This document shows, in pieces, positions 190-43,694 of a stretch of 64,000 nt of DNA. The stretch spans positions 1 to 64,000 of the forward strand of contig OX336359.1 of the NCBI GenBank assembly GCA_946902875.1. The letters are read 5' to 3'. The position numbers were made by a program, and so were the translations under genes. The notes under the pieces were generated by a model that searched no databases, was not told the origin of the DNA, and was given only the letters and a program-made list of their open reading frames with translations. Each line of letters starts with the position of its first letter. Position 1 is the first letter of the stretch. The DNA is from Nematopogon swammerdamellus (lineage: Eukaryota > Arthropoda > Insecta > Lepidoptera > Adelidae).

Positions 190-804
190 CCATGAGTCGT
201 AGTCTGTCGAGCGCCCGCGCTGGCGCCTCGTGTAGATGCGGCTCAAGGCGGAGCGACAGTAGTGGCGGACGAGCAGCGCGGCATACAGCACAAGGTAGGA
301 GGCGAACATGAGTCGGTCGAGCGCCTGCGCTGGCGCCTCGTGTAGATGCGGTTCAAGGCGGAGCGTCAGTAGTGGCGGGCGAGCAGCGCGGCGTACAGCA
401 CGAGGTAGGCGACGAACATGAGTCGGTCGAGCGCCCGCGCTGGCGCCTCGTGTAGATGCGGCTCAAGGCGGAGCGACAGGTAGTGGCGGGCGAGCAGCGC
501 GGCGTACACCACGAGGTAGACGGCGAACATGAGTCGGTCGAGCGCCCGCGCTGGCGCCTCGTGTAGATGCGGCTCAAGGCGGAGCGTCAGTAGTGGCGGG
601 CGAGCAGCCCGGCATACAGCACGAGGTAGACCGAACATGAGTCGGTCGAGCGCTCGCGCTGGCGCCTCGTGTAGATGCGGCTCAAGGCGGAGCGACAGGT
701 AGTGGCGGGCGAGCAGCCGGCGTACACCACCAGGTAGACGGCGAACATGAGTCGGTCGGGCGCCCGCGCTGGCGCCTCGTGTAGATGCGGCTCGAGGCGG
801 AGTG
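190..804 (-). repeat. 110-bp tandem array of exon 11 end (TM4 plus 3' UTR), 6 extra copies
   Basis: Copies centred near 232, 342, 452, 563, 671 and 781 each contain [26 protein letters not shown] sequence and the following 3' UTR. Some copies keep the stop (CACTACTGA); others have one extra base (CACTACCTG) that opens the frame into the next copy. This is the only array at a terminal exon and the only one not including a splice site. Confidence 0.92.
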
Positions 805-1005
805 TCAGTAGTGGCGGGCGAGCAGCGCGGCGTACACCACGAGGTAGACGGCAAACATGAGTCGGTCGAGAGCCCGAGCAAGGGCCGCGTGCGCCGACGA
901 GCGCGCCCGCTGTCGCCCACATAGCGGCGCAGGTTCCTCCGTGCGCAGCGCGCGCGGCGCCTCCTCCCCCTCCTCCTCTGGCTCTGTTACGAAGCTCTCG
1001 TAGCT
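805..1005 (-). CDS. Exon 11: cytoplasmic loop end, TM4 and stop
   Basis: The acceptor TTATGTGCAG is phase 0. Residues 550-615: an acidic stretch ([11 protein letters not shown]), a basic stretch (GRQRARSS), then [24 protein letters not shown] and TGA at 805-807. 'DR.MF' plus a hydrophobic helix at the extreme C-terminus matches the Cys-loop receptor TM4 layout. Confidence 0.84.
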   Translation of the reverse strand, partial: SYESFVTEPEEEGEEAPRALRTEEPAPLCGRQRARSSAHAALARALDRLMFAVYLVVYAALLARHY

Positions 1006-10000: not shown

Positions 10001-13000
10001 ACCCGTATGCGTCATATTAGTCTGCTGACGCAGTGGATCAGGTGCGCGTAGAGTGGGCGCAGACGTTAACTTCACATTATTTCTGTTCGCTATAATTAAG
10101 CTATAGAATTAAGTAAATTTTAGTATGGAGGTTGAAGATATTCACGATCTTTAGCCACTTTGAACCAACTATTAAATTGCTCTCCTTACAACATATTTTC
10201 ACACAATAAATTCGATTTTGTGAAAAAATCTGATGTGATAGGCAAAAACTAAGTCCATATTCGTGATTAGCGCACCCAAATTAGTAAAGGACACCTATCA
10301 AACTTCAAACAATGCAACTTGTGTAGGCCTGTGTAATCCGTGGTTGACGCACTTTTGAGTTGCTGCATCAGGAGCATCACTTATCGGATTTGTTTCACTT
10401 ATATCATATTTATTTCTTCCAGATATACTCGTAGATGTGCTCTTTTTTCGTATCTTTGTTCATCCGCTGAGGTGATTACACTTGGAGCATCAGTAACGGC
10501 GATGTCGGGTTTGGCAGCTCCACAAATAAACTCCTGGATGACAAGCAGTACGGATTCTGGAAAGCGCGGTCAACAGGAGATCTTCTAACGTACGTTACGC
10601 ATATATGGGCCGAAAGATTGGACAATTTCGTAGAGTCGCTGGCAGTCGCCCCGGATATTTCCAAGGTTTTCGACCGCGTTTGGCACCGAGACCTTCTAGG
10701 CAAGCTTCCGTCCTTCGGCATTCCACCCAAACTCTGCACCTGGAACGCGAGCTTTTTGGCGGGTCGTTCCATCTTCGTTACCATAGATGGCTTGAAATCG
10801 GACGACTTTCCAATCAACGCTGGTGTTCCGCAGGGCTCTGTGCTGTCGCCTACGCTTTTCTCAACCTTCGGTCTGAAGTGGCAGAACTACGATCAACCAC
10901 ATACGACAACAACAAGATCGTTAAGGGAATCGAGACTAAAATGACTTATATTGAAGAAAAATTTCAAGTCGTAGATCAGTTGAAGAACGAAGTCGACACG
11001 ATAAATTCGAGACTTAGTCGTATTGAAGAAGAACAAGGTGCTAGAGAACAATGGGCTCGTCGTCCGAATATCGAAGTCGTCGGAATCCCGGAAAAAAGGG
11101 GGAAGATCTAATTCGCCTGGTGTGTAATCTGGCCAGCACAGTAGGGTTCAACCTAAACCCAAGGATGGACATCAACTTTGTTACTAGGGTCGCTCCTAAG
11201 AACCCTCAGCCTGGGCGCTCAAAATCGATTATCATTGCGATGCAAGCGCGCTATCGAAAGGATGACTTTCTCGCTACTTTGAGAAAAATTCACAGATTTC
11301 GTGGCTCACACGACTATCGAGCACATTGAAAATGAATCTACGGAATTCGAAAAAATATTGTCGCTGAGCGACACGAGAAAGTCGGGATAAGGAAAAGGTT
11401 AGTTGGGTTTTGATGATGGAGCCGGAAGGAAGCCATAGGAACTGTCAAGCTTATCTCTTTTTCTGTCTAAATTGTAGTTTAAATTTTTTAAGCTGCTTGT
11501 GTTTTTGAAAAATAATAAAAAATATATAAATGTAATATTTTTTTTTATTTTGTTGAATTCATTTTCAATGCGACGCATCTTCTAACCTAACCTATATTCC
11601 TATATTCCTATATCCAACGAGCCCAAACACGGTTGATTTATCATGTGTAGTTTAGGAGTTCCTATGGCTTCATTCCGGCTCCATCATCAGGACCCTGGAC
11701 ATACATATGACAAGAGTACTTGCGAAGACAAATCCAACGAGCCCAAACACGATGGGCTTATCATGTGTAGTTTAGGAGATCCTATGGCTTCCTTTCGGCT
11801 CCATCATCAGAACCCAACTAACCTTTTTCTTATCCCGACTTTCTCGTGTCGCTCAGCGACAATATTTTTTCGAATTCCGCAGATTCATTTGCAATGTGCT
11901 CGATATTCGTGTGAGGCACGAAATCTGTAAATTTCTTTTTTCAGAAAGGTTGAGCTACAGGGCAAACCCTTAACCCGATCGTCTTTGTTTTAGGCTCAAA
12001 TTGTAGCTGACTAAACTGTCCAGTGTTTTTTATATTATTCTTCGTTTCCAAAATATCGACCGCCAAAATCAAAAATTCGAAAAAAATTTTTTTTTTTTTT
12101 ACTATTTCGACCATAACTTTTTTCGTTTTTTACTTTCTCGAATAATTATTTTTGCACCTTACACCTCTCATGAGTACGCGTCTTTTTAGCCTTCTTTGAA
12201 TATCATATCTTCACAACTCTCCGAGATATAAGGGGCTCGCACTTTTTCGTGAAATCGGGGCCTATACTGAAACGAACCAAAAGACATTTTCAATGTCAAA
12301 AGAACAATTTCGCGCTTACTTCTCTTGCTTACAGAAGACATATCACAGATGTTACCTTTCTTTTCAAAATCATAAATTCATTTGTAGAGTCACAGTATTT
12401 ATTGGATAAAATTAAATTTAGATGTCCCATCAGAAACACACGTTCTACTGACACATTCTCATTGTACAGAAGTCATTGTAATTATTGCGAGCACAGATTC
12501 AAAAATCGAAGTTGTAAGACATATAATGATTTGTTCTGCAGTGTCGACATTTTTAACACTAGTTTAGGTCAATTAAAAAAACTCTGTTATAATATTATAC
12601 GATAGGTCATTGGTCTCACTTGCTAAACAATTTTCTAAATCGCAATGTTTTATTTTTCGTTTTTTCGTTTTCCTTTCTTGTCCAAATTTAAACAAATGTA
12701 TACACTTTCTATATATATATTATCATTAAGTTTTGTTGATATTATTAATTGTAGGATTAAAATTATTTGTAGAAACTTTACTGGTTTAGGTGTTAGTTTA
12801 GAGTTAATTTACTATGTATTCATTTTGTAACTGTTTGTTTCTGAAAGTTTAAAATAAAAATAAAAATAAAAGTAAAAGAAGTCCGTGGGTCCGCTAAGTA
12901 AATAAAATATAAAAACTCAGAGCTGCGCGACTATTTACTTGGCGGTCCAGGACCCGTTTAATTGCGAGGTGAGTACACACCTTGACCGGGGGGAGGCAGC

Positions 13001-14899
13001 AGATGAAGCTGAGCAGGTGGGAGGATGCGAGTGCACGCAGACAGCCGGCGTAGTGCGCGGCGAGCGTCGGCCGCGCCAGCAGCGGCTGCACCGGCAGCGC
13101 CAGCAACGCGCTCAGCAGCACCCAGCAGTACAGCAGCACTGCCGCACCACACACACACGCACGCACACACATCACACACATCGTGCGCGGCAAGCGTCGG
13201 CCGCGCCAGCAGCGGCTGCACCGGCAGCGCCAGAAACGCGCTCAGCATCACCCAGCAGTACAGCAGCACTGCCGCACCACACACACACACGCGCACACAG
13301 AAACATCATACACATCGTGCGCGGGAGCGTTGGCCGCGCCAGCAGCGGCTTCACCGGCAGCGCCAGCAACGCGCTCTGCAGCACCCAGCAGTACAGGAGC
13401 ACTGCCGCACCACACACACACACACACACATCACACACATCGTGCGCGGCGAGCGTCGGCCGCGCCAGCAGCGGCTGCACCGGCAGCGCCAGCAACGCGC
13501 TCAGCAGCATCCAGCAGTACAGCAAAACTACCGCACCACACACACACACACACACGTCACTCACGTCGTGCGCGGCGAGCGTCGGCCGCGTCAGCAGCGG
13601 CTTCACCGGCAGCGCCAGCAACGCGCTCTGCAGCACCCAGCAGTACAGGAGCACTGCCGCACCACACACACACACACATCACACACATCGTGCGCGGCGA
13701 GCGTCGGCCGCGCCAGCAGCGGCTGCACCGGCAGCGCCAGCAACGCGCACAGCAGCATCCAGCAGTACAGCAACACTACCGCATCACACACACACACACA
13801 CACACGTCACTCACGTCGTGCGCGGCGAGCGTCGGCCGCGCCAGCAACGCGCTCAGCAGCACCCAGCAAAGCAATACAGCAGCACTGACGCACCACACAC
13901 ACACACACACACACGTCACACACATCGTGCGCGTCGAGCGTCGGCCGCGCCAGCAGCGGCTGCACCAGCAGCGCCAGCAACGCGCTCAGCAGCACCCAGC
14001 AATACAGCAGCACTGACGCACCACACACACACACGACACATACATCGCGCGCGGCGAGCGTCGGCCGCGCCAGCAGCGGCTGCACCGGCAGCGCCAGCAA
14101 CGCGCTCAGCAGCACCCAGCAATACAGCAGCACTGACGCACCAAACACACACACACACACACACATCACACACATCGTGCGTGGCGAGCATCGGCCGCGC
14201 CAGCAGCGGCTGCACCGGTAGCGCCAGCAAGCGCTCAGCAGCACCCAGCAGTACAGCAGCACTGCCGCACCATACCCACACATCACACACATCAGACGTC
14301 GGCGAGCGTCGGTCGCGCCAGCAGCGGCTGCACCGGCAGCGCCAGCAACGCGATCAGCAGCACCCAGCAGTACACCAGCACTGCCGCACCACACACACAC
14401 ATCTCACACATCAGACGTCGGCGAGCGTCGGTCGCGCCAGCAGCGGCTGCACCGGCAGCGCCAGCAACGCGATCAGCAGCACCCAGCAGTACAGCAGCAC
14501 TGCCGCACCACACACACACATCTCACACATCAGACGTCGGCGAGCGTCGGTCGCGCCAGCAGCGGCTGAATCGGCAGCGCCAGCAACGCGATCAGCAGCA
14601 CCCAGCAGTACAGCAGCACTGCCGCACCACACACACACACACACACATCACACGTCGGCGAGCGTCGGCCGCGCCAGCAGCGGCTGCACCGGCTCATATA
14701 TTTTATCTTAGTTTTAGGTCCTTTAGTATGATTAACGCGTGACTAGGCACCCGTCAGGGCGGCATGACATTCGTAACCCCCGCACACGATCGAATGCACC
14801 ATAGGCATCGTTGCGCCAGGTTAGACATCGTTAGACACGTCGCATTTTCTATATTTGCCAAAATGAATTGTGAATATGTCCTACATGTCGAAGATCCAA

Positions 14900-14934
<35 letters not shown>

Positions 14935-26900: not shown

Positions 26901-29900
26901 TGTGGTTTATTGTACATACAGCACGGCTGTACCCATTCCACTGCACGCCCGTGCATGCTATCGACGAGGGAGATCCTGCTAAAAGGATGGATTTTTGTCG
27001 TTTTATGATAAACATCGACCTAGAGAACCGCAATTATTTAAGTAAGATTTTGTGGACGAACGAATCGAAGTTCTCGCCACTGGCTTAATCCAAGGCGCCT
27101 GGCTGCAGCTCTAATTGAAGTAGTAGGATCTCTTCTGAAAAACCCCAATACTTCCCCCTCATCTTCAGGCGGAATAACACCTGGTCTGCCAGCATCTGCA
27201 TGCCTTCGGTTAATACTGCCGATTTCTCGGAGGCCCCCGTATGTCCCAGAAAACACTCTTACATTAGGTATACGACGATCAGGGTAAGGATGCGCGTATT
27301 CCATTTGTACCGCAGCGTCAACGCCGCCATCGCAAAATCCATAACAAAACAGAATATCAGCGTATTCTTCACGAGTGAATGCAGCCATTACTGCAGGCAC
27401 AACTCAAAAATAACGAACAATTTAGAACAACAACAAGGAATCAACAACGTGGAATTCGTTTTACTAATTACTAATTTACTAATTTTGGCGGGAGACAAAA
27501 CGGCCGATCCCTAGTAAACGTTCTCTCTGTGTCAGACGTTTCATTTTTCGTTCATTTTGAGCACGAGTCTGATACTTGATATCCGATAAAAAATGTAACT
27601 TTTGTGCAAGTGTTCAACATGTGTACCTTTTCTGAAAGCTTATGAAATGATGAAGTTTTTCCCGTAATTTGCATGCCACGTGTCATAGAATTTTTTTTTA
27701 GTAATCCTCTTCGATTTAAATACATTTTGTGGTTTTTTTTTTGCATAACCTGTGAGGAAGCCGAAATAGTGGGAGGTAGGGAGGCGGTGGGATGACAATA
27801 GGGCGGGATAGAGGGGGATGAGGGAGTGGGTATGAGGGAAAAGCGAGAGAGAGCGTTCCAGAGCTTACCAGTTCTGTGCAGGAAAAATCTGCAGAACCAA
27901 TTGGTACGCATCCGCGGTAAGTCCAGCGTGTAGGGATGCAATCCCTGCCCAGTGCGCGTGGTGCGTAGGTGGAAAGGTGATTGCAGGATCGCGTTAAACA
28001 GCTCCTCCGAGCATTCCCCATGGAATAATCGATAGAAGACACTTAGGGCGCCAACATCCCTACGGAGTTGCAGTGGTTCTAGATCACGGGACACGTCGGG
28101 ATCACCCACTAGTCGCACGGCTCGACGCTGGATCAAAGGCGCAAGCTGGTATTTAGCTGAGCCATCCCACAAATGCGAGCAGTACTCCAAGCAGAACCTA
28201 ATCTGCGATTTATACAAAAGCAGTCTTTGGCCCGGCGAGAAGTACCGTCGCACCTTATTGAGTACGCCCAACTTTTTAGAATCGAGGATTGATAATTTTT
28301 GACGTAATAAATAGCTTGAAAATATGTACATAGATGAGCAGGTGGTACAAATGTGATATAAGCAGACGGAGTGAACGCTCACCATGATGACTTCGAGGAG
28401 GGAGTGTAGGACGCCGGCGGCGGCGTCGTAGCGTGCGGAGGCGAGCGCGAGCTCGAGGCGGACTGTGACGCGCGGCGCCGGCGCCGTCAGCGGCGACCGC
28501 TCGCCCAACAACTCCACCTTCAGCCGCTGCGCCGTCGTGAGCTGCGGCGCGACCACCTCCGACCGCGTCGCGTCTGAAACCATTCCGCTCTCCTCGGCAA
28601 GATGCTAGGTGCCGAGTATAGTTGAAAGACGTGTAAGTCGATGTTCTCTCTCGGCGGCGTCAGCGGCGACCGCTCGCCCAACAACTCCACCTTCAGCCGC
28701 TGCGCCGTCGTGAGCTACGGCGCCACCAGCTCTGACCGTGTCGCGTATGTAACCGCTCCTCTCTCCTCTAGAGATGCTAGGTGCCGAGTATAGATGTAGA
28801 TACTCACTCTCGGCCGTGTCGTCGCCGGCGACCGGACAGTCGTAGAGGAACTTGGCCTCCACGTTGGTCCAAGAGGCGAAGCTGAAGTAGTTGATGGAGA
28901 GCGGGTCCAGGTCGTTGTAGTGCAGAAAGGGCAGCGCCTCCCCCTCGCGGCCCACGTCCACCGACCCGTCTGCGTACACATACTTAGTATTAGTATACAT
29001 AATGTTCGGCACAAAGACAATTTTTTTTGTAGGTAAGTGGGGTCATTTGCATGGTTTTGACGCATGATACCTTTTGTCAGGTGTCACGTGGTAGCGAGGT
29101 ATAGTTTTTTTTTATTTAGGTATATATTTTAGTACTTTTTGACAAACTACACAAATGAGGTTATTGTTTTAAATTGGCAACACCTTTTTTTACCTTTGTT
29201 CACATGTTTTATCTGAATTTTCGTAAATAAATCCTAACATCTTTATGTCTTTATGTAAATAAATCCTAACGTTTGGGCAGAACCTTAAAATACACGAAGT
29301 CAAACTATTCACCACAAAGACAAGTTCTTAGAGTGGAATCTCCATGTTAAACGCAGTCCCCGCAGATGATAATATGCTCTTGTTCAGGTTGATATGACAC
29401 TAAAGCTTCCTTGGTGTGGTGGATTACATTGGCGTATTTCAACTTCGGATCATTGATATTCTCTACCTACATAGAAAGTGTACATCCTGCATGTTGGTAC
29501 AGTGTCGATAGGCTCTGGTCGGCCGGGAACAGCTGGTGGAAGTATACACCCTGCATGTTTGTACAGTGTCGATAGACTCTGGTCGGCCGGGAACAGCCGG
29601 TGGAAGTATACATCCTGCATGTTGGTACTGTGTCGATAGACTCTGGTTGGCCGGGAACAGCCTGTGGAAGTGTACATCCTGCATGTTGGTACAGTGTCGA
29701 TAGACTCTGGTCGGCCGGGAACAGCCGGTGGAAGTATACATCCTGCATGTTGGTACTGTGTCGATAGACTCTGGTCGGCCGGGAACAGCCTGTGGAAGTA
29801 TACATCCTGCATGTTGGTACAGTGTGGATAGACTCTGGTCGGCCGGGAACAGCCGGTGGAAGTGTACATCCTGCATGTTGGTACAGTGTCGATAGACTCT

Positions 29901-32900
29901 GGTCGGCCGGGAACAGCCGGTGGAAGTGTACATCCTGCATGTTGGTACAGTGTCGATAGACTCTGGTCGGCCGGGAACAGCCGGTGGAAGTGTACATCCT
30001 GCATGTTAACTCAAAGTAACAGTCTTCAAGACAATTTCGCGCTTACTTCTCTTGCTAACAGAAGATATATCACAGATGTTACCTTTCTTTTCAAAATCAT
30101 AAATTCCTTTGTCGAGTCACAGTATTTATTGGATAAAATTAAATTTAGATGTCCAATCAGAAACACACGTTCTACTGACACATTCTCATTGTACAGAAGT
30201 CATTGTAATTATAGCGAGCACAGATTCAAAAATCGAAGTTGTAAGACATAATTATAATGATTTGTTCTGCAGTGTTGACATTTTTAAAACTAGTTTAGGT
30301 CAATTCAAAAAACTCTGCTATAATATTATACGATAGGTCATTGGTCTCACTTGCTCAACAATTTTCTAAATCGCAATGTTTTATTTTTCGTTTTTTTCGT
30401 TTTTTCGTTTTCCTTTCTTGTCCAAATTTAAACAAATGTATACACTTTCTATATATATATTATCTATAAGTTTTGTTGATATTATTAATTGTAGGATTAA
30501 AATTATTTGTAGAACTTTACTGGTTTAGGTGTTAGTCTAGAGTTAATTTACTATGTATTCATTTTGTAACTGTTTGTTTCTGAAAGTTTAAAATAAAAAA
30601 TAAAATAAATAAATAAATGTTGGTACAGTGTCGATAGACTCTGGTCGGCCGGGAACAGCCGGTGGAAGGCGTGGTGGACGCAATTGTGTTTGGATAACTG
30701 TGCGCATTACTCATTACCTGTTTTGTTCGAACAAATCTCATGTACCTAGCTCCTCAAAAAATAGAGTCCGCTAGCTTGGGTTTATTGATACTAGAGACAC
30801 TCACCGTCGGTGATCTTGATCCAGAAGGCGCGCAGATGTATGGGTGAGAGTATGTTGAGGGTGCGCTCGGAGATCTTGGTGCCGCGTCGCTGCATGCGTC
30901 GCAGTTCGGAGAACTTGTTCGCGCCGCCACCCAGCACTGCACACCAGAGCAGACATCGTTTACTACCGAGCTAGGGCCGGGCAGACGGACGGACGGAAGA
31001 GATAATTAGTATAATATACTTTGTAGTAATAGCACTGAGTAATAGTGCTATTACTAGAACTAACTGTGGAGGTTACCTACCGATCTCATAGACAGGATCG
31101 GACGGAGCGGGATTCTCGACAGGCGAGAGCAGGATGTGACCGTTGCTGGCGGCGAGTATGGCGATGTGCATGAACAGCAGAGTGCCGGGCTCGAGCCGCT
31201 CCGACTCCGAGTCGGCGATGCGGTAGAAGGGGCTGTAGTGGTAGCCGCTCGTGCTCAGGTGCTCCTTGCAGCGGTGCGCCACTGTGGACACAGACACATG
31301 ACGTTGCTGGCGGCGAGTATGGCGATGTGCATGAACAGCAGAGTGCCGGGCTCGAGCCGCTCCGACTCCGAGTCGGCGATGCGGTAGAAGGGGCTGTAGT
31401 GGTAGCCGCTCGTGCTCAGGTGCTCCTTGCAGCGGTGCGCCACTGTGGACACAGACACATCACGTTGCTGGCGGCAAGTATGGCGATGTGCATGAACAGC
31501 AGAGTGCCGGGCTCGAGCCGCTCCGACTCCGAGTCGGCGATGCGGTAGAAGGGGCTGTAGTGGTAGCCGCTCGTGCTCAGGTGCTCCTTGCAGCGGTGTG
31601 CCACTGTGGACACAGACACATCACGTTGCTGGCGGCGAGTATGGCGATGTGCATGAACAGCAGAGTGCCGGGCTCGAGCCGCTCCGACTCCGAGTCGGCG
31701 ATGCGGTAGAAGGGGCTGTAGTGGTAGCCGCTCGTGCTCAGGTGCTCCTTGCAGCGGTGCGCCACTGTGGACAGAGACACATCACGTTGCTGGCGGCGAG
31801 TATGGCGATGTGCATGAACAGCAGAGTGCCGGGCTCGAGCCGCTCCGACTCCGAGTCGGCGATGCGGTAGAAGGGGCTGTAGTGGTAGCCGCTCGTGCTC
31901 AGGTGCTCCTTGCAGCGGTGCGCCACTGTGGACACAGACACATCACGTTGCTGGCGGCGAGTATGGCGATGTGCATGAACAGCAGAGTGCCGGGCTCGAG
32001 CCGCTCCGACTCCGAGTCGGCGATGCGGTAGAAGGGGCTGTAGTGGTAGCCGCTCGTGCTCAGGTGCTCCTTGCAGCGGTGCGCCACTGTGGACACAGAC
32101 AGATCACGTTGCTGGCGGCGAGTATGGCGATGTGCATGAACAGCAGAGTGCCGGGCTCGAGCCGCTCCGACTCCGAGTCGGCGATGCGGTAGAAGGGGCT
32201 GTAGTGGTAGCCGCTCGTGCTCAGGTGCTCCTTGCAGCGGTGCGCCACTGTGGACACAGACACATCACGTTGCTGGCGGCGAGTATGGCGATGTGCATGA
32301 ACAGCAGAGTGCCGGGCTCGAGCCGCTCCGACTCCGAGTCGGCGATGCGGTAGAAGGAGCTGTACCTACCCCGTATTTTGACATTGAAAATGTCTTTTCG
32401 TTCGTTCCAGTATAAACCCGATTTCACGAAAAAGTGCGATCCCTTTATATCTCGGAGAGTTGTGAAGATATAATATTCAAAAAAGACTCAAAAGACGCGT
32501 ATTCATGAGAGCTGTAAGGTGCGAAAATAATTATTCGAGAAAGTAAAAAACGAAAAAAGTTATGGCCGAAATAATGAGAAAAAAAATCAATTTTTTCCGA
32601 ATTTTTGATTTTGGCGCTCGATATTTTGGAAACGAAGAATGATATCAAAAATTTCAGAAAATCCTCCCTCGACAATTTAGTCAGCTACAAAAAAATCAAA
32701 GCCGACCGGGTTAAGGGTTTGCCCTGTACCTCAACCTTTTTACCCGACTACGGCGAAGCCAAAAAAGGAAGGGTTATGAGTTTGGCGTGTATGTATGTAT
32801 GTATGTATGTATGTATGTATGTATGTGACTATCTATATTCCACTCTACAGCCTAAAGTACTGGGCCGATTTGAATAATTCTTGTGGTATTGGATTCGTCT

Positions 32901-33488
32901 TATTCACGGGAGTGTCATAGGCTATATAACAATTTTCAAAATTCAAAATGGCGGGCGCACTGCGTCAAAATGTCAAATTAGTTTTTCAAAATATATTGAG
33001 TAGGGTATCAAATTAAAGATAATTAAATTACGATTCCGAAAACATATACTTTGCTATCTATTAAACTTATGTGTACAGAAAAATAGAGCAAAATGTGTGG
33101 CGCATGCATGTATGAATCGCGCAAAGAGTTTGTATTACGTCGCTGCGCTCCTTAGCGACGTAATACAAACTCTTTGGAATCGCGATTATTCGCGATGAAG
33201 CGATGGTCGCCCGCGCACCGCGCCGCGTGCCCCCACGGTTTCGGTACGTTACATACATACACCGATGACGCGCGACGACGATGACGACGTGAAAAGTAAC
33301 ATGGTATTGTTGGTAATATACCTACATACTTACTCACTGATCTACCGCAATTTTATATAGATACAGTACAGTACAATCTGCCCGTGCATTTACGCTCTAC
33401 TACGTCTATGAATGTATTTAGGATAAATTTTAAGAATCTTTTCCTATCCTTACTGAAGTAAATACATTTATATTGCATTACTTAACTC

Positions 33489-33519
<31 letters not shown>

Positions 33520-39500: not shown

Positions 39501-41150
39501 ATTGGAGTAGGAGAGACGGAATAGGCGCGTCAGCACTGGAGCCAACTCGGGAGCACACCTTTTTAACACCAATGCAGGAATCCTATCCTGCCTACTCGCT
39601 TTCGTGACGTCTAGGGAGAGAAGCTCCGCCCGTACAGTCCGTTGTCGAAACTGCACTTCCGGCATGGAGTTCTCACACCTAGGTATGGATGGGGGAGTGG
39701 CACCCCCATCGTCCAGGTTGGAGTTCCCCGCAAAGAGAGATACCAGTAAGTCGGCTTTCTCCTTTGCGGAGTGGGCAAGTGAGCCTCCAGGACACTGCAG
39801 AGGTGGAAGAGAGGAGCGGCAGAAATTCGACTCGACAGATTTGGCGAGAGACCAGAACTTACGGCTCCCAGTTGGGTATTGGTTCAGTCTAGGACTAGTA
39901 GGATTCAGTTCAGGATTAGTAGATCTCGCCCTAGGTTAATTTCGAGAAACCTATTTTTTCTAAAAATGAAAAGACGTCCATCTCGCGTTCTTCGCTCCTA
40001 AGTATTTCAAATTCCATAACGCGTCTCCAGTAAGAAATTATTTCAGTAATATTCTTCTAATATCCTAGAAACTACACGATAGAACTACCAGCAATATTCG
40101 ATCCAGGGCGACAGCTACTGAGCCAACACCCAACGAAGGAAATAACAGGAAGTTGACCGATCGGTCTTCGCTTCTCGTAGTCGCCTTTTATGAACATTTT
40201 ATTTTATACATACATACATAAATATAACACGCTGTACCTGGACAATCGGGGTAAGCAGAGTAATCAGTGTTGTGCTGCAAATGCTCTTGTAAAATTACAA
40301 AATTACAATTATTTTATTTTATAAAAAATATTTCTATTACAATTCTACATAACAAATTGTTAAACGGTTAAACAAACAACATAAATTATAAATTAAATTA
40401 AGCCAATAACCAATAAACTATAAAATGTAGCAGGTTCCCTATCTATGACGCTCGCGTTAGTGAGACTAATCCAATGACACCTTACTATTTTAGTCAGGTA
40501 AAAACTGAAAAAACCATGCTCAGAAGTGGCTGAAGTAAGTGTACACTCCGCTCACTGCTGTACGTGAAGTTAGTAAGTGAACACTCCGCTCACTGCTGTA
40601 CGTGAAGTTAGTAAGTAAGCACTCCTCTCACTGCTGTACGTGAAGTTAGTAAGTGAACACTCCACTCACTGCTGTACGTGAAGTTAGTAAGTGAACACTC
40701 CGCTCACTGGCTGTACGTGAAGTTAGTAAGTGAACACTCCGCTCACTGCTGTACGTGAAGTTAGTAAGTGAACACTCCGCTCATTGCTGTACGTGAAATT
40801 AGTAAGTGAACACTCCGCTCACTGCTGTACCTTAAGTTAGTAAGTGAACACTCCGCTCACTGCTGCAAGTGAAGTTAGTAAGTGAACACTCCGCTCACTG
40901 CTGTAAGTGAAGTTAGTAAGTGAACACTCCACTCACTGCTGTAAGTGAAGTTAGTAAGTGAACACTCCGCTCGCTGCTGTACGTGAAGTTAGTAAGTGAA
41001 CACTCCGCCGCTCACTGTTGTACGTGAAGTGAGTAAGTGAACACTGCACTTACTGCTGTAGGTGAAGTTGTACTCAGCGCGAGCGGGGGCGGGTACCAGC
41101 GCCAGCAGCGCCACCGTCGCCGCCGCCACAAGCCAACTCCACTCTCTCAT
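805..41150 (-). CDS. Gene span: PF12248-type domain fused to Cys-loop ligand-gated ion channel subunit (11 exons)
   Basis: Exons in order: 41150-41054, 31281-31081, 30936-30805, 28969-28808, 28573-28383, 18983-18877, 17353-17095, 16904-16715, 15104-14955, 13138-12981, 1005-805. Total 1848 nt, 615 residues plus TGA; all ten introns have matching phases and GT/AG ends. Domains: signal peptide 1-25; farnesoic-acid-O-methyltransferase-type domain about 51-188; Cys-loop receptor ligand-binding domain about 205-437, with W263, W270, W289-K-P and the Cys-loop C332-C350; TM1 439-458; TM2 467-484; TM3 496-517; short cytoplasmic loop; TM4 598-613. Possible N-glycosylation sites at N28, N198, N276 and N411. 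By family it should be a plasma-membrane receptor subunit. The ligand is unknown, and the lack of vicinal cysteines in loop C (single C414) argues against a nicotinic alpha subunit. The PF12248 domain is named for a methyltransferase, but enzyme activity should not be assumed. The exon 8 donor is the weakest call; an expression test is missing. Confidence 0.87.
1560..1945 (-). pseudogene. Mariner-like transposase fragment
   Basis: The minus-strand translation shows the mariner N-terminal helix-turn-helix ([19 protein letters not shown], then [15 protein letters not shown]). Downstream, with a stop between, [14 protein letters not shown] and DKTILSHL match the second HTH of mos1-type transposases. 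The catalytic DDD region was not recognised. It is broken by stops, partial and dead. 1021-1559 on its far side shows nothing I can name. Confidence 0.72.
2110..3600 (+). pseudogene. Decayed CR1-like non-LTR reverse transcriptase
   Basis: Three plus-strand frames join into one [19 protein letters not shown] and [17 protein letters not shown] lie at 2150-2280, [12 protein letters not shown] near 2440-2480 after a frameshift, GVPQGSI with FADD near 2610-2725, and thumb motifs ([18 protein letters not shown]) to 3560. At least two frameshifts and a stop after FADD kill it. It resembles the two better CR1-like copies at 46.9-52.9 and 60.3-64 kb. No endonuclease part is left. Confidence 0.85.
3601..5370. 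other. No gene recognised; AT-rich stretch then GC-rich island
   Basis: Contains an A-rich tract (3795-3830) and a short GC-rich, CpG-dense block (about 4260-4490). Several short open frames lack codon or motif support. The block could be promoter-like, but nothing in the sequence proves it. Confidence 0.4.
5371..6290 (+). pseudogene. Non-LTR reverse transcriptase fragment (LYADDTQIY type)
   Basis: A degraded motif A lies near 5385. It is followed by [27 protein letters not shown] (from 5650), [13 protein letters not shown] (5745-5790), then [20 protein letters not shown] and RFEEHINQ thumb motifs to 6267. YADD is intact but frames shift near 5640 and stop at 6267. It is a different lineage from the FADD copies (L2/Rex/Jockey-like; not assigned further). 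Confidence 0.82.
6432..6571 (-). repeat. RTE-like retroelement 3' end ('EAYVQQWT' tail)
   Basis: A short copy of the very common lepidopteran sequence whose minus strand encodes a decayed end of a non-LTR RT; CAGTCAGTCAGTCAGTCAG is its simple-repeat tail. The same family recurs at 43695-44045. Confidence 0.7.
6573..6766 (+). pseudogene. Non-LTR endonuclease fragment
   Basis: [26 protein letters not shown] and [14 protein letters not shown] match the middle of an apurinic-like endonuclease domain (Y/RSP and GDFN motifs). Only about 60 residues remain; it joins a minus-strand element at 6766. Confidence 0.75.
6767..8455 (-). pseudogene. CR1-like ORF2, endonuclease and start of RT, truncated
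   Basis: Reading down the minus strand: [11 protein letters not shown] (catalytic Glu), [42 protein letters not shown] and SISDHEG form an endonuclease. It is followed by a linker, then [17 protein letters not shown] and [17 protein letters not shown] (RT motifs 0-2) and YGFRKGRST near 6790. Frameshifts occur near 8100 and 7430. The palm with FADD is missing, since another fragment abuts at 6767. Same lineage as the 60-64 kb element. Confidence 0.82.
8456..9170 (-). pseudogene. Remnant of CR1-like ORF1 (SGNH-like domain)
   Basis: The minus translation gives [20 protein letters not shown], then [35 protein letters not shown] and [13 protein letters not shown]. Spacing and context (just 5' of the ORF2 endonuclease) fit the esterase-like ORF1 of CR1 elements; several stops interrupt it. 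Confidence 0.6.
9395..9790 (-). pseudogene. Fragment of a transposon-associated protein ([13 protein letters not shown] family)
   Basis: The minus strand reads [20 protein letters not shown], then [17 protein letters not shown], matching a protein found in many copies in insect genomes and usually linked to mobile DNA. Stops and a frameshift show decay. Function unknown. 9791-10500 beyond it is AT-rich with no gene seen. Confidence 0.55.
10500..10870 (+). pseudogene. Jockey-like RT fragment
   Basis: [20 protein letters not shown], then [30 protein letters not shown] and [18 protein letters not shown] fingers and palm up to motif B. It ends abruptly at 10870 where an unrelated ORF1-type fragment starts. 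Confidence 0.8.
10871..11280 (+). pseudogene. Retroelement ORF1-like fragment (coiled coil plus Baculo_FP-like domain)
   Basis: A coiled-coil stretch ([30 protein letters not shown]) is followed by [12 protein letters not shown] and, after a one-base shift near 11100, [16 protein letters not shown], then [13 protein letters not shown]. This pattern is common in lepidopteran element-encoded proteins related to the Baculo_FP domain family. It is broken by the inverted-repeat element inserted at 11281. Confidence 0.65.
11281..11945. mobile_element. Long-TIR element, family A, copy 1
   Basis: The left end AATTCACAGATTTCGTGGCT and the inverted right end near 11935 are arms of roughly 150-180 bp, including the GTCGCTGAGCGACACGAG segment. 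The interior has two roughly 115-bp direct repeats with 'GATGATGGAGCCGGAAGG'. No transposase is inside, so it is a non-autonomous foldback/MITE-like element. Confidence 0.78.
11946..12295. repeat. Interspersed repeat family C, copy 1
   Basis: AT-rich block starting at GGTTGAGCTACAGGGCAAAC and ending at ACATTTTCAATGTC. It is the reverse complement of 32359-32745. A family A element abuts it at the same base context here and at 20090. Confidence 0.72.
12296..12880 (+). repeat. Non-LTR retroelement 3' end, copy 1
   Basis: [20 protein letters not shown], then [19 protein letters not shown] and [14 protein letters not shown] with a stop at 12605 match the extreme C-terminus of a non-LTR RT, followed by about 270 bp of 3' UTR and an A-rich tail. 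A second, about 95% similar copy lies at 30008-30617. Confidence 0.78.
12981..13138 (-). CDS. Exon 10: TM3
   Basis: The acceptor follows a TG repeat and reads GTGCGGCAG; phase 1 in, with the split codon CTG. Residues 498-549: [20 protein letters not shown] is TM3, followed by [12 protein letters not shown] and the start of the cytoplasmic loop, ending LPPVK. The donor AAG|GTGTGT (phase 0) matches exon 11. This is the only one of about 14 copies of the TM3 sequence that keeps the exon 3' part, hence the choice. Confidence 0.82.
13139..14690 (-). repeat. 115-130-bp tandem array of exon 10 acceptor edge, about 13 extra copies
   Basis: Copies of TM3 coding sequence ([16 protein letters not shown]...) recur about every 115-130 bp; length varies through the CA/TG tract that serves as polypyrimidine tract. 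Each has a CGGCAG acceptor. Downstream of AAH the copies run into TG-rich intron and not into the true exon end. Later copies (14280-14640) share their own variants, so sub-blocks have been duplicated. The array yields long open frames on both strands. Confidence 0.93.
14698..14940 (+). repeat. Jockey-like retroelement 3' end with (AATA)n tail
   Basis: The end of the RT reading frame (GRHDIRNP) and 3' UTR finish in AATAAATAAATAAATAAATA. It sits in intron 9 right at the edge of the exon 10 array. Confidence 0.7.
14955..15104 (-). CDS. Exon 9: end of TM1, TM2
   Basis: The acceptor TGTGTGTGTAG is phase 1 and the donor ATAC|GTGAGC phase 1. Residues 448-496: [11 protein letters not shown] completes TM1, DAAQAQRR replaces the usual 'DSGEK' turn, [18 protein letters not shown] is TM2, and [12 protein letters not shown] is the TM2-TM3 link (family 'P....IPL'). 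The pore helix lacks the usual polar pattern and the acidic residue before it. Confidence 0.84.
15105..15447 (-). repeat. About 154-bp tandem array of exon 9 acceptor edge, 2 extra copies
   Basis: Two upstream copies carry the TG-rich acceptor tract, the AG, and the exon from VMALVL through LDAT. They then diverge into GTTGTGTAAGTGAGG, so each copy ends at a strong donor-like GTAAGT that the real exon does not use. Use of that donor would leave phase 2 (or phase 0 for the GTGTAA alternative) instead of the phase 1 needed for exon 10. Confidence 0.9.
15721..16714 (-). repeat. 180-bp tandem array of exon 8 donor edge, 5 extra copies
   Basis: The last roughly 80 bp of exon 8, its donor and about 100 bp of intron repeat every 180 bp (one interval is about 193 bp because of a 13-bp insertion). 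Because 180 is a multiple of three and no stop occurs, a 441-codon frame runs through exon 8 and all copies. The exon's unique 5' part is present only in the upstream-most copy, which marks it as the real exon. Copies differ at a few bases only. Confidence 0.92.
16715..16904 (-). CDS. Exon 8: loop C region and start of TM1
   Basis: The acceptor CGGTTGCAG is phase 0. Residues 384-446 contain NEWELVSS, equivalent to the family 'WdLl..' strand, an N-V-T sequon with a single cysteine where loop C lies, then [19 protein letters not shown], the pre-TM1 'I..RR....Y' strand and TM1 entry. The donor that keeps phase 1 with exon 9 is T|GTCGGT at 16714; a nearby GTACCC would break frame. This donor is non-consensus and is the weakest splice call of the gene. 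Confidence 0.8.
17095..17353 (-). CDS. Exon 7: ligand-binding domain with expanded Cys-loop
   Basis: The acceptor GATGTACAG completes an Asn codon (phase 2 in), and the donor CGC|GTCAGT is phase 0. Residues 298-383 include the VVHSG strand (family 'V.HSG.V.W'), then C332, seven alanines, WPRDSHYC (C350), then [15 protein letters not shown], equivalent to the 'FGSW.Y....' strand. The spacing between the two cysteines is 17 residues; the family norm is 13. The extra length lies in a GCC trinucleotide run. The acceptor tract is short on pyrimidines, but phase and alignment support it. Confidence 0.85.
17405..17590 (+). pseudogene. Jockey-like RT C-terminal fragment
   Basis: [20 protein letters not shown], then SVFYR and CSKELFNAI on the plus strand. 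It lies in intron 6, 50 bp upstream of exon 7, and meets an oppositely oriented copy of the same family at 17590. Confidence 0.75.
17591..18360 (-). pseudogene. Jockey-like RT C-terminal fragment, inverted relative to its neighbour
   Basis: The minus strand reads, in pieces, [44 protein letters not shown]. It is broken by frameshifts. Together with 17405-17590 (+) and 18361-18595 (+) it forms a +/-/+ patchwork of one family. Confidence 0.72.
18361..18595 (+). repeat. Retroelement 3' end with poly(A)
   Basis: [33 protein letters not shown] and a stop, then a short 3' UTR with AATAAAAAAAAAG. A 5'-truncated Jockey-like insertion. Confidence 0.75.
18877..18983 (-). CDS. Exon 6: receptor 'W.D..L.W ... 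IWKP' segment
   Basis: The acceptor GGTTGCAG is phase 0 and the donor CACAA|GTCAGT phase 2. Residues 262-296 read [15 protein letters not shown], then [10 protein letters not shown]. This is the hallmark loop D / beta-2 to loop A pattern of nicotinic-type receptors (W.D..L.W, then IW.P). An N-A-T sequon lies between. No edge array is present. This exon gives the firmest family assignment in the gene. Confidence 0.9.
19255..19530 (+). repeat. 3' end of the CR1-like family that is intact at 46.9-52.9 kb
   Basis: Shares GCTTAGATGTAGTATGTTAT, the 'GCTCGGTAAGTTTTCTTGCC' block and 'ACTGAATATGCACATG' with 52630-52830, including the terminal AATAAACATCTCAATCTGGA. It is a 5'-truncated copy of the same element. 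Confidence 0.78.
19576..19762. repeat. 11-bp GC-rich minisatellite
   Basis: GCCGGTGCCGC repeated about 17 times. Since 11 is not a multiple of three, all frames read the same [11 protein letters not shown] peptide, which explains open frames on both strands. Confidence 0.93.
20030..20089. repeat. Family C fragment
   Basis: GGGTTAAGGGTTTGCCCTGT and AGCTCAACCTTTCTG, inverted relative to 11946-12000, directly against a family A left end. Confidence 0.7.
20090..21045. mobile_element. Long-TIR element, family A, copy 2
   Basis: Left arm from AAATTCACAGATTTCGTGCC; right arm ends GTGAGGCACGAAATCTGTGA. The arms extend over about 200 bp, with three internal direct repeats carrying GATGATGGAGCCGGAA. 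A near-perfect palindrome (AGAAGATGCGTCGC / GCGACGCATCTTCT) lies at 20790-20825. No coding capacity. The TTAGG-like GGTTAGGTTAG runs are part of the repeat. Confidence 0.8.
21046..21630 (-). pseudogene. Jockey-like RT thumb/C-terminus fragment
   Basis: [60 protein letters not shown] and [20 protein letters not shown]. It has a readable single frame of about 146 codons. The same subfamily appears at 41180 (+), 56590 (-) and 58930 (+). Confidence 0.8.
21640..21860 (+). repeat. Lepidopteran SINE/LINE-tail type repeat
   Basis: GTGCCCGCGGCTCCGCCCGC, then AAAATCGGTTCAGTGGTTCT and GACAGACAGACACTCAGACA. A very widespread lepidopteran sequence; a related head occurs at 43548. Confidence 0.65.
21861..24520. 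other. No gene recognised
   Basis: Intron 5 sequence of the receptor gene. It includes GC-rich low-complexity DNA near 22780-22850 (CCGCC runs), a TG-rich tract at 23405-23470 and short frames without motif support. Confidence 0.45.
24525..24935. repeat. About 32-40-bp degenerate tandem array
   Basis: Units built on GCTCTATA(A/G)ACG(C/T)AT and CGGTATAT with TTGTTGT linkers, roughly 11 copies, diverged. Confidence 0.82.
24936..26740. other. No gene recognised; fragment of family C end at about 26190-26300
   Basis: Mostly unassigned intron. TTGACATTAAAAATGTCTTT at 26212 resembles the end of family C. AT-rich block from 26360 to 26740. Confidence 0.4.
26750..27420 (-). pseudogene. Tc/mariner-superfamily transposase with its middle piece inverted
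   Basis: On the minus strand 27400-27103 encodes an N-terminal HTH region ([58 protein letters not shown]). On the plus strand 26871-27075 reads [33 protein letters not shown] and ILWTNESKF, the next part of the same protein, where the family has a WTDESKF motif; here Asp is Asn. A 27-bp inverted repeat (26871-26897 and 27076-27102, one mismatch) encodes the shared RRLG.SQW segment and bounds the flipped part. Dead element. Confidence 0.72.
27715..28285 (-). pseudogene. Jockey-like RT C-terminal fragment
   Basis: [60 protein letters not shown] and [20 protein letters not shown] run open to RTGKLWNAL. It lies in intron 5 about 100 bp downstream of exon 5. It is the same family as 38040-39950. 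Confidence 0.82.
28383..28573 (-). CDS. Exon 5: start of Cys-loop receptor ligand-binding domain
   Basis: The acceptor TGGTTTCAG and donor ATG|GTGAGC give phases 1 and 0. Residues 198-261 start with an N-A-T sequon made across the junction. Alternating hydrophobic segments follow ([37 protein letters not shown]). These correspond to the N-terminal helix, beta-1 and beta-2 of Cys-loop receptors, where 'V.V.L.L' strands lead to the 'W.D..L.W' motif now at the start of exon 6. The assignment rests strongly on that junction. Confidence 0.8.
28574..28790 (-). repeat. Single decayed tandem copy of exon 5 acceptor edge
   Basis: The 5' part of exon 5 and its upstream intron are repeated once, about 150 bp upstream of the real exon. 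The copy has lost the acceptor AG (CAT in place of CAG) and carries an in-frame TAG, so it cannot replace the exon. It looks like an older relic of the process that built the other arrays. Confidence 0.82.
28808..28969 (-). CDS. Exon 4: end of PF12248-type domain
   Basis: The acceptor is GTACGCAG and the donor GAGA|GTGAGT, phases 1 and 1. The exon encodes residues 144-197. It contains [13 protein letters not shown], the most recognisable PF12248 motif, then [13 protein letters not shown] and FLYDCP, the usual closing strands. It ends in an acidic linker, DDTAE, that leads into the receptor ligand-binding domain. This exon has no edge array. Confidence 0.88.
28990..29480. other. No gene recognised (intron 3)
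   Basis: AT-rich, unassigned. It holds a short direct repeat (AAATAAATCCTAAC twice near 29230-29270). Confidence 0.4.
29484..30007. repeat. 64-bp minisatellite, about 8 copies
   Basis: Unit around GGCCGGGAACAGCCGGTGGA and GTGTCGATAGACTCTGGTC, period 64. One more partial unit occurs at 30618-30667 beyond an inserted retroelement end, so the array was once continuous. Open frames across it are repeat artefacts. Confidence 0.93.
30008..30617 (+). mobile_element. Non-LTR retroelement 3' end inserted in the 64-bp array, copy 2
   Basis: Same sequence as 12296-12880 ([30 protein letters not shown]) and an AAATAAATAAATA tail. The array unit is interrupted at GCATGTT and resumes ATGTTGGTAC, so ATGTT is a possible target-site duplication. 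Confidence 0.82.
30618..30668. repeat. Displaced last unit of the 64-bp array
   Basis: GTTGGTACAGTGTCGATAGA and GGAACAGCCGGTGGAAG match the array unit exactly. Confidence 0.88.
30805..30936 (-). CDS. Exon 3: middle of PF12248-type domain
   Basis: The acceptor TGTGCAG precedes TGCTGGGTGG; the donor is GACG|GTGAGT; both are phase 1. It encodes residues 100-143, including [24 protein letters not shown] and the core tryptophan in RAFWIKI. The glycine turn followed by a basic/Ile stretch and 'FWI.I' is the expected middle section of the domain. It shows no tandem copies nearby. Confidence 0.87.
31081..31281 (-). CDS. Exon 2: first part of PF12248-type domain
   Basis: The acceptor TGTGTCCACAG ends at 31282 and the donor GATCG|GTAGGT begins at 31080; both junctions are phase 1. 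The exon encodes residues 33-99. It starts AHRCKEHL, then [12 protein letters not shown], then the strand [20 protein letters not shown] and ends DPVYEI. This matches the opening of the farnesoic-acid-O-methyltransferase-type domain, where an 'A.NDAHI.L..' strand precedes a YEI motif. The next exon completes a Val codon and begins the LGGG turn. Confidence 0.86.
31282..32358 (-). repeat. 161-bp tandem array of exon 2 acceptor edge, 7 extra copies
   Basis: Copies start at 31302, 31463, 31624, 31785, 31946, 32107 and 32268, exactly 161 bp apart. Each holds the acceptor (CTGTGTCCACAG) and the first roughly 140 bp of exon 2 but stops before the exon 3' end, so none has the exon 2 donor. Copies are nearly identical, which suggests recent amplification or ongoing homogenisation. 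The period is not a multiple of three, so reading through breaks frame. The last unit is cut by another repeat at about 32358. Confidence 0.93.
32359..32745. repeat. Interspersed repeat family C, copy 2 (inverted)
   Basis: Begins at TTTTGACATTGAAAATGTCT, ends at GGTTTGCCCTGTACCTCAAC. It is the reverse complement of 11946-12295 and cuts off the last unit of the exon 2 array. Confidence 0.75.
32746..33020 (+). repeat. Lepidopteran SINE-like repeat with (GTAT)n
   Basis: Begins CCCGACTACGGCGAAGCCAA, then a GTATGTATGTATGTATGTAT tract and GGGCCGATTTGAATAATTCT, a common lepidopteran repeat layout. Confidence 0.65.
33122..33176. mobile_element. 55-bp palindrome flanked by 8-bp direct repeat
   Basis: Two perfect 23-bp arms (33122-33144 and 33154-33176) enclose 9 bp. 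GAATCGCG directly precedes (33114-33121) and follows (33177-33184). This looks like a minute terminal-inverted-repeat insertion with an 8-bp target-site duplication. Confidence 0.7.
33690..33815 (+). repeat. Retroelement 3' end with (CATA)n tail
   Basis: CACGGCATTAAGCTCACCCA, then GTGTTCAATAAAGAATATAT and ACATACATACATACATACA, a frequent lepidopteran element end. Confidence 0.65.
34040..34960 (+). pseudogene. Jockey-like RT, palm to C-terminus, decayed
   Basis: In broken plus-strand frames: CYADDST region near 34210, [17 protein letters not shown] near 34245-34300, KLVKFNASK near 34355, then [20 protein letters not shown] and [20 protein letters not shown] near 34800. Frameshifts and deletions throughout. 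Same family as 38040-39950 but opposite strand, in intron 1. Confidence 0.78.
35327..36137. mobile_element. Foldback element with about 255-bp inverted arms
   Basis: Arms 35375-35630 and 35880-36137 are reverse complements over nearly their full length (for example GAGCCGTGGTCGGGCGTTC and GAACGCCCGACCACGGCTC). The central 249 bp is unique. The left side carries an extra roughly 85-bp direct repeat. No transposase. Family A begins right after it. Confidence 0.85.
36145..36966. mobile_element. Family A element, copy 3, partial and interrupted
   Basis: The left end AATTCACAGATTTCGTGCCT and two internal 'GATGGAGCCGGAAGGAAGCC' repeats are present; the matching right arm is missing. A MITE interrupts it at 36684. 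Confidence 0.72.
36684..36904. mobile_element. 221-bp MITE with 29-bp perfect terminal inverted repeats
   Basis: Left end 36684-36712 (GGTCTCCGCGCGCTCCGACT...) is the exact reverse complement of 36876-36904. ATATAAG precedes it (36677-36683) and recurs at 36920-36926; if that is the target-site duplication, 15 further bp belong to the insertion. Compare the uninterrupted family A copy near 20752. Confidence 0.78.
36975..37036. repeat. Hairpin with 22-bp perfect arms
   Basis: TAGAAGGCGGTACAAAAGCA and its complement at 37015-37036 enclose an 18-bp loop. No target-site duplication is evident. Confidence 0.75.
37480..37800 (-). mobile_element. SINE, same family as 52968-53345 in its 3' half
   Basis: Starts with poly(T) on the plus strand, then ATGGAAACTGACACGATTGG, CATAGCCGTTTCGACCGACC and GGATTAAACCCTACCACCTA. 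It ends in the common lepidopteran TTAGTCGCCTTTTACGACAT block. The tRNA/5S head is not seen in this copy. Confidence 0.7.
38040..39950 (-). pseudogene. Jockey-like RT, best copy of the family
   Basis: 39665-39255: [79 protein letters not shown]. After a stop near 39255, 39224-38166 is open for 352 codons: [38 protein letters not shown] (active YADD), then thumb and C-terminal motifs to [20 protein letters not shown] near 38100. Upstream reading beyond 39665 is degraded, with no endonuclease seen. 5'-truncated, disabled by the stop. Confidence 0.88.
39951..40532. other. No gene recognised (intron 1)
   Basis: AT-rich, unassigned, up to the start of the exon 1 edge array. Confidence 0.4.
40533..41053 (-). 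repeat. 38-bp tandem array copied from the exon 1 donor edge
   Basis: About 13 units follow exon 1 directly inside intron 1. On the minus strand each unit carries a near copy of the last 15 or so coding bases (AACTTCACGTACAGCA against AACTTCACCTACAGCA in the exon), then a donor-like GTGAGC, then intron sequence. The unit is 38 bp with few changes, so the exon 1 splice donor is present in about 14 tandem versions. The true exon is the copy that remains open back to the ATG. Confidence 0.88.
41054..41150 (-). CDS. Exon 1: signal peptide of the receptor gene
   Basis: ATG at 41150 opens 32 codons plus one base. MREWSW is followed by a hydrophobic run rich in Ala, Leu and Val and an ARA end, so cleavage is likely after residue 25, leaving a mature start EYNFTYS with an N-glycosylation sequon. 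The donor reads A|GTAAGTG (phase 1). The phase fits the acceptor of exon 2, where the joined codon is ATG. The 5' UTR and promoter were not found; a retroelement fragment lies about 30 bp upstream. Confidence 0.8.
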
Positions 41151-41179
41151 TATGTTTACGATAGGTACCTGTAAAAACA

Positions 41180-41370: not shown

Positions 41371-41472
41371 CGCGAGTTGAGGTGGCTTGTGTACAGCCGA
41401 GCATCATTGTTCCCTCCACAGTTAGGCACAGTCACCCATACCGATTTTCATAAAAAACCACTCCCCGTCCGT

Positions 41473-43490: not shown

Positions 43491-43544
43491 AAATGCGGCA
43501 CCGCCACATTCTCTTATCCGAGTAATCCTCACAATTCTTTGCCT

Positions 43545-43690: not shown

Positions 43691-43694
43691 ACAT

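Follow-up and report, generated by a model that had tools for sequence, protein, structure and literature searches.

Minisatellite arrays built from a gene's own exon edges adjoin 6 of the 11 exons (1, 2, 8, 9, 10 and 11) of an NtR-type receptor gene in the window, the 64,000-nucleotide stretch analysed here, which is bases 1-64000 of contig C28 (15.27 Mb; the assembly has 699 Mb in 39 contigs). Each array holds 3 to about 14 copies of a unit that includes the edge of the adjoining exon, as detected by TRF and self-BLAST (Table 1), and genes on six other contigs (C1, C3, C10, C14, C20 and C26) carry exon-edge arrays as well, so that their formation is not specific to the NtR gene. To judge from sequence, the arrays at NtR and elsewhere are mirages, that is, minisatellites spanning exon-intron boundaries. 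They probably arose by short-repeat-mediated tandem duplication of exon edges and expanded into the intron, most strongly in terminal, probably highly recombining DNA. Provisionally, what is new here is the occurrence of mirage-type arrays in an insect, together with a still thin link to chromosome ends. What was an amphioxus curiosity now extends to insects and can affect about half of a gene's exons, which has a bearing on the gain of introns and exons. Given the provisional tie to chromosome ends, the cause of exon-edge minisatellites can be put to the test in chromosome-level assemblies of Lepidoptera.

Arrays at the exon edges of the NtR gene

Positions 805-41150 of the window, minus strand, hold one 11-exon gene that encodes about 615 residues once the exons are joined. 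The exons were placed via their splice junctions and then checked against homologues; the donor of exon 8 would lie at ..CTAGTCT/gtcggt, because the homologues demand that phase. Going by its predicted product, this is a lepidopteran NtR-type receptor gene that combines a Methyltransf_FA domain with a Cys-loop receptor. PF12248 (Methyltransf_FA, 120.8 bits) is followed by PF02931 (Cys-loop ligand-binding, 60.9 bits), both above the cut-off, and the homology to lepidopteran proteins is full-length (best match 3e-124, 37% identity, 96% coverage, with the best 7990 candidates by common words scored). The names of the matches in the source databases include NtR, and 2 of the 50 matches come from Glossina. 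The 11-exon reading aligns over 96% with the homologues, and the authentic exons are intact and joined to the innermost array copies. The protein itself is divergent, with a GARP/FYMINK ratio of 2.16 in a 15-protein alignment, as against 0.58-0.80 in the 14 homologues, and a mean identity to the other aligned proteins of 0.37, as against 0.47-0.57 for the homologues. Most NtR acceptors in the window are TG-rich and lack a clear pyrimidine tract (14 bases viewed per site).

Table 1. Exons of the NtR gene and exon-edge arrays in the window and in other genes of the genome
Feature	Position	Strand	Unit, copies, identity	Remarks
NtR exon 1	41054..41150	-		Coding start ATG to donor
Exon 1 donor-side array	40534..41069	-	38 bp x14.0, 92%	TRF, self-BLAST
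NtR exon 2	31081..31281	-		Innermost copy, continuous with remainder of exon
Exon 2 acceptor-side array	31141..32364	-	161 bp x7.6, 99% identical	TRF, self-BLAST
NtR exon 3	30805..30936	-		Without extra copy
NtR exon 4	28808..28969	-		Without extra copy within 3 kb
NtR exon 5	28383..28573	-		
Exon 5 acceptor-edge duplicate	28652..28768	-	Single 117-bp copy, 90.6% identical	173 bp upstream; self-BLAST
NtR exon 6	18877..18983	-		Ligand-binding domain; without extra copy
NtR exon 7	17095..17353	-		Without extra copy
NtR exon 8	16715..16904	-		Donor placed from phase and alignment
Exon 8 donor-side array	15719..16802	-	180 bp x6.0, 96%	TRF, self-BLAST
NtR exon 9	14955..15104	-		TM1/TM2
Exon 9 acceptor-side array	14983..15445	-	153 bp x3.0, 97%	TRF, self-BLAST
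NtR exon 10	12981..13138	-		
Exon 10 acceptor-side array	13049..14693	-	About 115-130 bp	15 further BLAST pieces
NtR exon 11	805..1005	-		Last coding exon, TM4; stop at 807-805
Exon 11 array	201..876	-	110 bp x6.2, 92%	Coding end into 3' flank; TRF, self-BLAST
Kinase array	C1		196 bp x5	Donor-side
nAChR array	C20, 19.53 Mb		134 bp x5.8	Donor-side
Second nAChR exon array	C20, 20.51 Mb		181 bp x2.7, 86%	Donor-side
nAChR array	C10		134 bp x5.1	Entire exon as unit, 24-nt introns; spans both boundaries; intronic part largely TG tract
C10 nAChR N-terminal exon (exon A, GC 0.50)	C10		73 bp x6.3	Acceptor-side
C10 nAChR exon after Cys-loop (exon E)	C10		68 bp x14.8	Acceptor-side
C10 nAChR TM2-TM3 exon (exon G)	C10		46 bp x4.2	Donor-side
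GPCR arrays, two exons	C14		216 bp x4.6 and 138 bp x6.0	Acceptor-side
GPCR array	C3		176 bp x4.1	Acceptor-side
GPCR array	C26		135 bp, at least 9.3 copies	Acceptor-side
beat-like Ig exon array	C28:161660-162364		144 bp	Acceptor-side; intronic part largely TG tract

The unit of the exon 1 array consists of the final 16 bp of the exon and the initial 22 bp of the intron, donor included; the donor reads gtaagt in the authentic copy and mostly gtgagc or gtgagt in the others. The reading frame of exon 8 is open across its entire array. The exon 2 array breaks off at its far end within an exon copy and abuts AT-rich sequence, and that of exon 10, in which a TG tract makes up most of the intronic part, also ends mid-exon; 14 of its 15 further BLAST pieces were listed, at 33-116 bp and 88-100% identity. 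Self-BLAST found no additional copy of exons 3, 4, 6 and 7 within 3 kb.

An earlier note on this DNA had described seven exons with arrays of their own edges. Six of these are confirmed by TRF and self-BLAST; exon 5 has a single diverged duplicate 173 bp away in place of the array of period about 150. That the unit usually includes the splice site applies to exons 1, 2, 8, 9 and 10, and the exon 11 unit, which holds no splice site, takes in the closing part of the coding sequence with its stop codon, plus 3' flank. The independent origin of the arrays is supported, as periods, ages and breakpoints differ; the arrays in the window have identities of 86-99% by TRF, and therefore their ages probably differ. 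Acceptor-side arrays do lie upstream and donor-side arrays downstream as described, because only the innermost copy can remain attached to the rest of the exon; this placement is forced by geometry, and array direction was therefore rejected as a clue to mechanism.

Chance clustering, which the same note had doubted, is indeed unlikely. Six of the nine arrays in 1-41200 (period at least 25 and score at least 150, weaker or shorter-period arrays being excluded) overlap an exon, against a mean of 1.65 overlaps under random placement, and at least 6 were reached in 73 of 200,000 trials. When the arrays were rotated, no shift beyond about 500 bp in either direction gave more than 5 overlaps, and 6 of the 18 array ends fall inside exons, which make up 4.5% of the span (P ~1e-4). 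These overlap and array-end tests are post hoc, the finding having been picked as striking, and therefore its recurrence in a second gene, the C10 nAChR gene described below, weighs more. Over a longer stretch (C28:1-264000), the same cut-offs left 43 arrays, comprising 7 derived from exons, 23 with units dispersed in the region, as in mobile elements, and 13 of local origin that were assigned to no exon; with the 23 set aside as dispersed, exons are the source of no fewer than 7 of the 20 arrays born locally.

Several other repeats were seen in the same region. A 64-bp unit is repeated 8.3 times at 29476-30007, with a partial extra copy at about 30617-30690; it looks exon-like and is open in several frames, its translation has no Pfam family, and self-BLAST gave no match to any NtR exon. 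About 37 copies of a 55-bp unit (41475-43483) lie directly upstream of the NtR start codon. Long open frames resembling LINE-type reverse transcriptases occupy 49454-52489 and 61288-63954, the first matching RVT_1 and the second judged by eye. Further along the contig, C28:84522-89026 and 212914-214024 are locally born arrays (146 bp x31 and 34 bp x33), with a minus-strand sequence resembling a GTGAGT donor in the unit of the latter.

Exon-edge arrays in other genes

Profiles of three families (PF00069, PF02931 and PF00001) were searched across the contigs, and a profile stretch that recurred at short spacing was taken as a cluster. The best candidates made up 339 rows (135, 66 and 138, respectively), in which 33 rows in 8 clusters and 306 others were counted by eye. 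Clusters are thus uncommon, at 8 among the 314 exon matches listed (1 kinase, 3 LGIC and 4 GPCR), and 8 of 8 turned out to be exon-edge arrays when examined as DNA. Together with the array in an Ig exon at C28 161.7-162.4 kb, which we take to belong to a beat gene, these kinase, nAChR and GPCR arrays bring to nine the exon-edge arrays confirmed as DNA outside the NtR gene, not counting the C10 exons that were read later. Both types of boundary are affected: donor edges are hit at NtR exons 1 and 8, in the kinase, at two C20 exons and at C10 exon G, and acceptor edges at NtR exons 2, 9 and 10, in beat, at C10 exons A and E and at four GPCR exons. The six 138-bp copies of a GPCR exon edge at C14:481034-481865 are 100% identical and their frame is open; they may be used as exons, or the assembly may deserve a check there. 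Two whole receptor exons at C10:15843250-15844200, 363 bp apart, 80.5% identical and each with its own splice sites, were left out of the cluster count and are probably alternative exons.

As a control at the DNA level, 20 kinase exons were inspected, from which the known C1 cluster row had been deliberately excluded, and none overlapped an array (1 of 21 when that row is included). These were top matches shorter than 320 bp with unmapped true exon ends, C25:13986962-13987276 being passed over; near them, a 29-bp, 2.7-copy array lies 70 bp past one match, and two other matches have arrays at least 130 bp off. The NtR proportion, 6 of 11 exons, differs from 0 of 20 with P = 6e-4 and from 1 of 21 with P = 0.003, and the NtR gene is therefore an outlier. 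Contig C21 (21.87 Mb) has no row from the three families among the best candidates listed and could be a gene-poor sex chromosome.

Position relative to chromosome ends

The second densely affected gene is an nAChR gene that sits 27-46 kb from the end of contig C10 and has arrays at 4 of its 7 recognised exons; we recognised these with what we take to be the receptor consensus. The gene was found via the repeats of one exon, and minus that exon the count is 3 of 6, the N-terminal exon having been chosen by position and the other two being previously unseen. The gene region also holds GC-rich arrays at 38721-44001 and 27657-29717 (58 bp, up to about 90 copies; 103 bp x20), which match none of the recognised nAChR exons. 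In this small sample, the two genes with most affected exons are thus each situated within ~50 kb of the end of a chromosome-scale contig (31 of the 36 contigs examined span 13.0-31.2 Mb). No TTAGG tract was seen in the window or in C10:22001-45970, and distances are given to contig ends, not to the real telomere.

Among all matches listed, 3 of the 8 clusters and 12 of the 306 others are 0.5 Mb or less from a contig end (hand count, Fisher P = 0.004; P = 0.034 when the C14 pair, which probably belongs to a single gene, is taken as one cluster). The remaining five clusters, namely the C3 and C26 GPCR, both C20 nAChR and the C1 kinase, are at least 1.3 Mb from an end. Exon-edge arrays were absent from eight other loci located 0.1-0.5 Mb from the ends of contigs, so that of nine near-end loci only the C10 gene (45 kb) was positive; a 27-bp two-copy repeat within one matched exon and an 81-bp, 1.9-copy array 250 bp off another were not counted. 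Judging from two terminal genes, one of them that of the given window itself, arrays seem to arise at a far higher rate near chromosome ends; the end effect, if real, reaches only some tens of kilobases inwards or concerns particular genes. According to the accessible text of PMC10978632, lepidopteran GC3 and coding GC climb weakly towards telomeres (R2 ~0.02), which was interpreted there as GC-biased gene conversion; such a rise would fit an NtR gene long placed in recombining terminal DNA.

A bolder proposal, to which we give somewhat less than even weight, is that the terminal DNA of this lepidopteran works as a factory of exon-edge tandem duplications, in which genes that come to lie near the ends gain arrays at about half their exons. 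If true, it would link recombination with GC-driven change in proteins and with decoy splice sites that are steadily produced, and some of the decoys, being in frame and open, would be a possible source of new exons and introns.

Breakpoints and a proposed origin

Five of ten arrays tested end just above a whole copy number (exon 1, 14.08; exon 9, 3.05; exon 11, 6.15; kinase, 5.06; C10 nAChR, 5.06) and two just below (beat, 4.90; exon 8, 4.92, with one copy missed), and three are not near one (exon 2, 7.60; C20, 2.83; exon 5, 1.60); indels within the C20 and exon 8 arrays shortened the stretch measured. Nor are the TRF copy numbers near whole at C10 exons A (6.3) and E (14.8) or in a C14 array (4.6). 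Direct repeats were seen by eye at the breakpoints of exon 8 (GGAGC), exon 9 (GACG), the kinase (GAGTA), C20 (CATC) and the C3 GPCR (GCGCCGTGTA), and further ones of ~16 imperfect bases at exon 11 and ~3 at exon 1; the C10 whole-exon array has a TG tract there. Short direct repeats in the single-copy flanks are predicted by tandem duplication between short repeats, and those of 3-5 bp could be due to chance. The exceptions are exon 2, exon 10 and the 216-bp array of C14, with far ends that fall within an exon copy and could stem from truncation or from the insertion of copied circles.

We propose that a replication or repair event would join two short direct repeats, one exonic and one intronic, and so duplicate a segment of about 40-220 bp. 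The copies may then expand via slippage or unequal exchange, mostly by whole units as the copy numbers suggest. Purifying selection would preserve the copy attached to the remainder of the exon, so that extra copies accumulate only on the intron side, which is upstream of the exon for acceptors and downstream of it for donors. The rate would be higher near chromosome ends, probably through frequent recombination-linked breaks, and the same terminal recombining setting would also account for the GC-driven changes in the NtR protein. At several splice sites, TG-rich tracts may provide both repeats and break points, and splicing presumably bypasses the decoys, by analogy with the amphioxus reports.

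Alternative explanations

The earlier note had favoured a gene-linked process, such as replication slippage or break repair in GC-rich exons. Slippage or break repair at exon edges is supported by the short direct repeats at several breakpoints; a gene-specific cause was rejected because genes on six other contigs are affected. GC richness as sole driver fits poorly. In its general form this explanation holds that GC-rich, structure-prone DNA makes arrays anywhere and that exons are merely the GC-rich islands of an AT-rich genome, which we consider rather unlikely. The NtR exons do have a GC of 0.61-0.75, against a mean of 0.43 over the first 264 kb of C28; all six arrays with unit GC of at least 0.60 and period of at least 100 in C28:1-264000 derive from exons, and the 58-bp and 103-bp arrays of the C10 region, with GC 0.60-0.61, are unlinked to any recognised exon. 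However, blocks with GC of at least 0.60 outside exons amount to 7.5 kb of the window, as compared with 1.84 kb of exons, and gave no long-period array of such GC (6 of 11 exons versus 0 of 33 blocks, P = 7e-5), although many of these blocks resemble mobile-element pieces and may be young. The 33 blocks were kept from 38 after five touching exons or exon arrays had been removed by eye, and two of them contain arrays of 11-bp units. In addition, the unit of the exon 1 array has a GC of 0.47, and C10 exon A, with GC 0.50, has an array.

Circles resembling microDNA, excised from exons, copied by rolling circle and reinserted, would leave the far end at an arbitrary phase, as in the arrays of exon 2, exon 10 and C14 that begin mid-exon; the far end of exon 2 opens with TACAGC, common to the exon, and the units of 38-216 bp fall in or under the 100-400 bp stated for microDNA in the accessible part of PMC5587290. 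Such an origin is nevertheless improbable, since 7 of 10 arrays lie near whole copy numbers, as predicted for duplication between short repeats, and the mid-exon exceptions could reflect later truncation. Less probable still is that selection maintains the copies, be it as decoys for splicing or as a stock of potential exons, and none of the observations calls for it. Many copies retain splice signals (authentic site counted, 7 acceptors at exon 2, 6 donors at exon 8 and 3 acceptors at exon 9), and the exon 8 and both C14 GPCR arrays are open in their exon's frame, but such signals are expected in young arrays regardless, 11 acceptor-like sites are left in the ~15 pieces of exon 10, the exon 11 stop is retained in 3 of 6 copies, and the periods of exon 2 (161) and exon 11 (110) disrupt the frame. 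An assembly artefact, with looped or duplicated contigs at scaffold ends, could be read into the terminal position of the two densest genes and the complete identity of the 138-bp C14 copies; it is very improbable, because copies in most arrays carry private differences (82-99%), where loops from an artefact would be exact, and arrays are present deep within chromosomes too.

Relation to known tandem duplications

Minisatellites born by slippage between short direct repeats have such repeats flanking the duplicated unit, which then expands by whole units. The present arrays share the short end repeats and the whole-unit expansion with them, but their units are anchored at exon edges. Subtelomeric minisatellites are associated with hot spots of recombination and are not known to derive from exon edges; a position near chromosome ends is what the terminal arrays have in common with them, whereas the units here are exon edges. 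Compared with the gain of introns by internal tandem duplication, as treated in the accessible text of PMC4974935 and PMC3087553, the duplicates here, known from DNA alone, also hold recruitable splice signals.

Mirages were named in amphioxus Adh3 as tandem duplications of exon-intron boundaries and, in the accessible parts of PMC3087553 and PMC3902484, are also described in globin (BflGb6, BflGb9), TnC and PGBD5 genes. Their units measure 10-72 bp in Adh3 and 150-160 bp in the globins, with 81-100% identity in BflGb6, and lie at the 5' or 3' boundary; regular splicing was reported there to be undisturbed, lengths to be unstable, and intron gain was proposed as an outcome. In agreement with these features, the units of NtR exons 1, 2, 8, 9 and 10 in the window cross the exon-intron boundary, both donor and acceptor boundaries are involved in this genome, and the authentic NtR exons are intact and attached to the innermost copy. 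Unlike the amphioxus mirages, those described here have an insect host, occur at 6-7 of the 11 exons in NtR and at 4 of the 7 exons recognised in the C10 nAChR gene, lie in their two densest genes at most 50 kb from contig ends, have units of up to 216 bp and include one array (C10) that repeats an entire exon with 24-nt introns. No insect report of exon-edge minisatellites was found in the literature searched, which covered few subscription papers.

Exon-edge arrays may be read as coding repeats and are in this way a hazard for annotation, as apparently happened in an NtR-family prediction from Tuta absoluta (P0020). This protein, seen at the protein level only, has 46-residue repeats, with an exon 9 edge repeated in frame; five of them end in an apparent read-through of an exon 9 donor. 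This points either to the same kind of event in a further moth species or to an assembly or prediction fault there. A second Tuta NtR-family protein among the matches (P0035) is of normal size.
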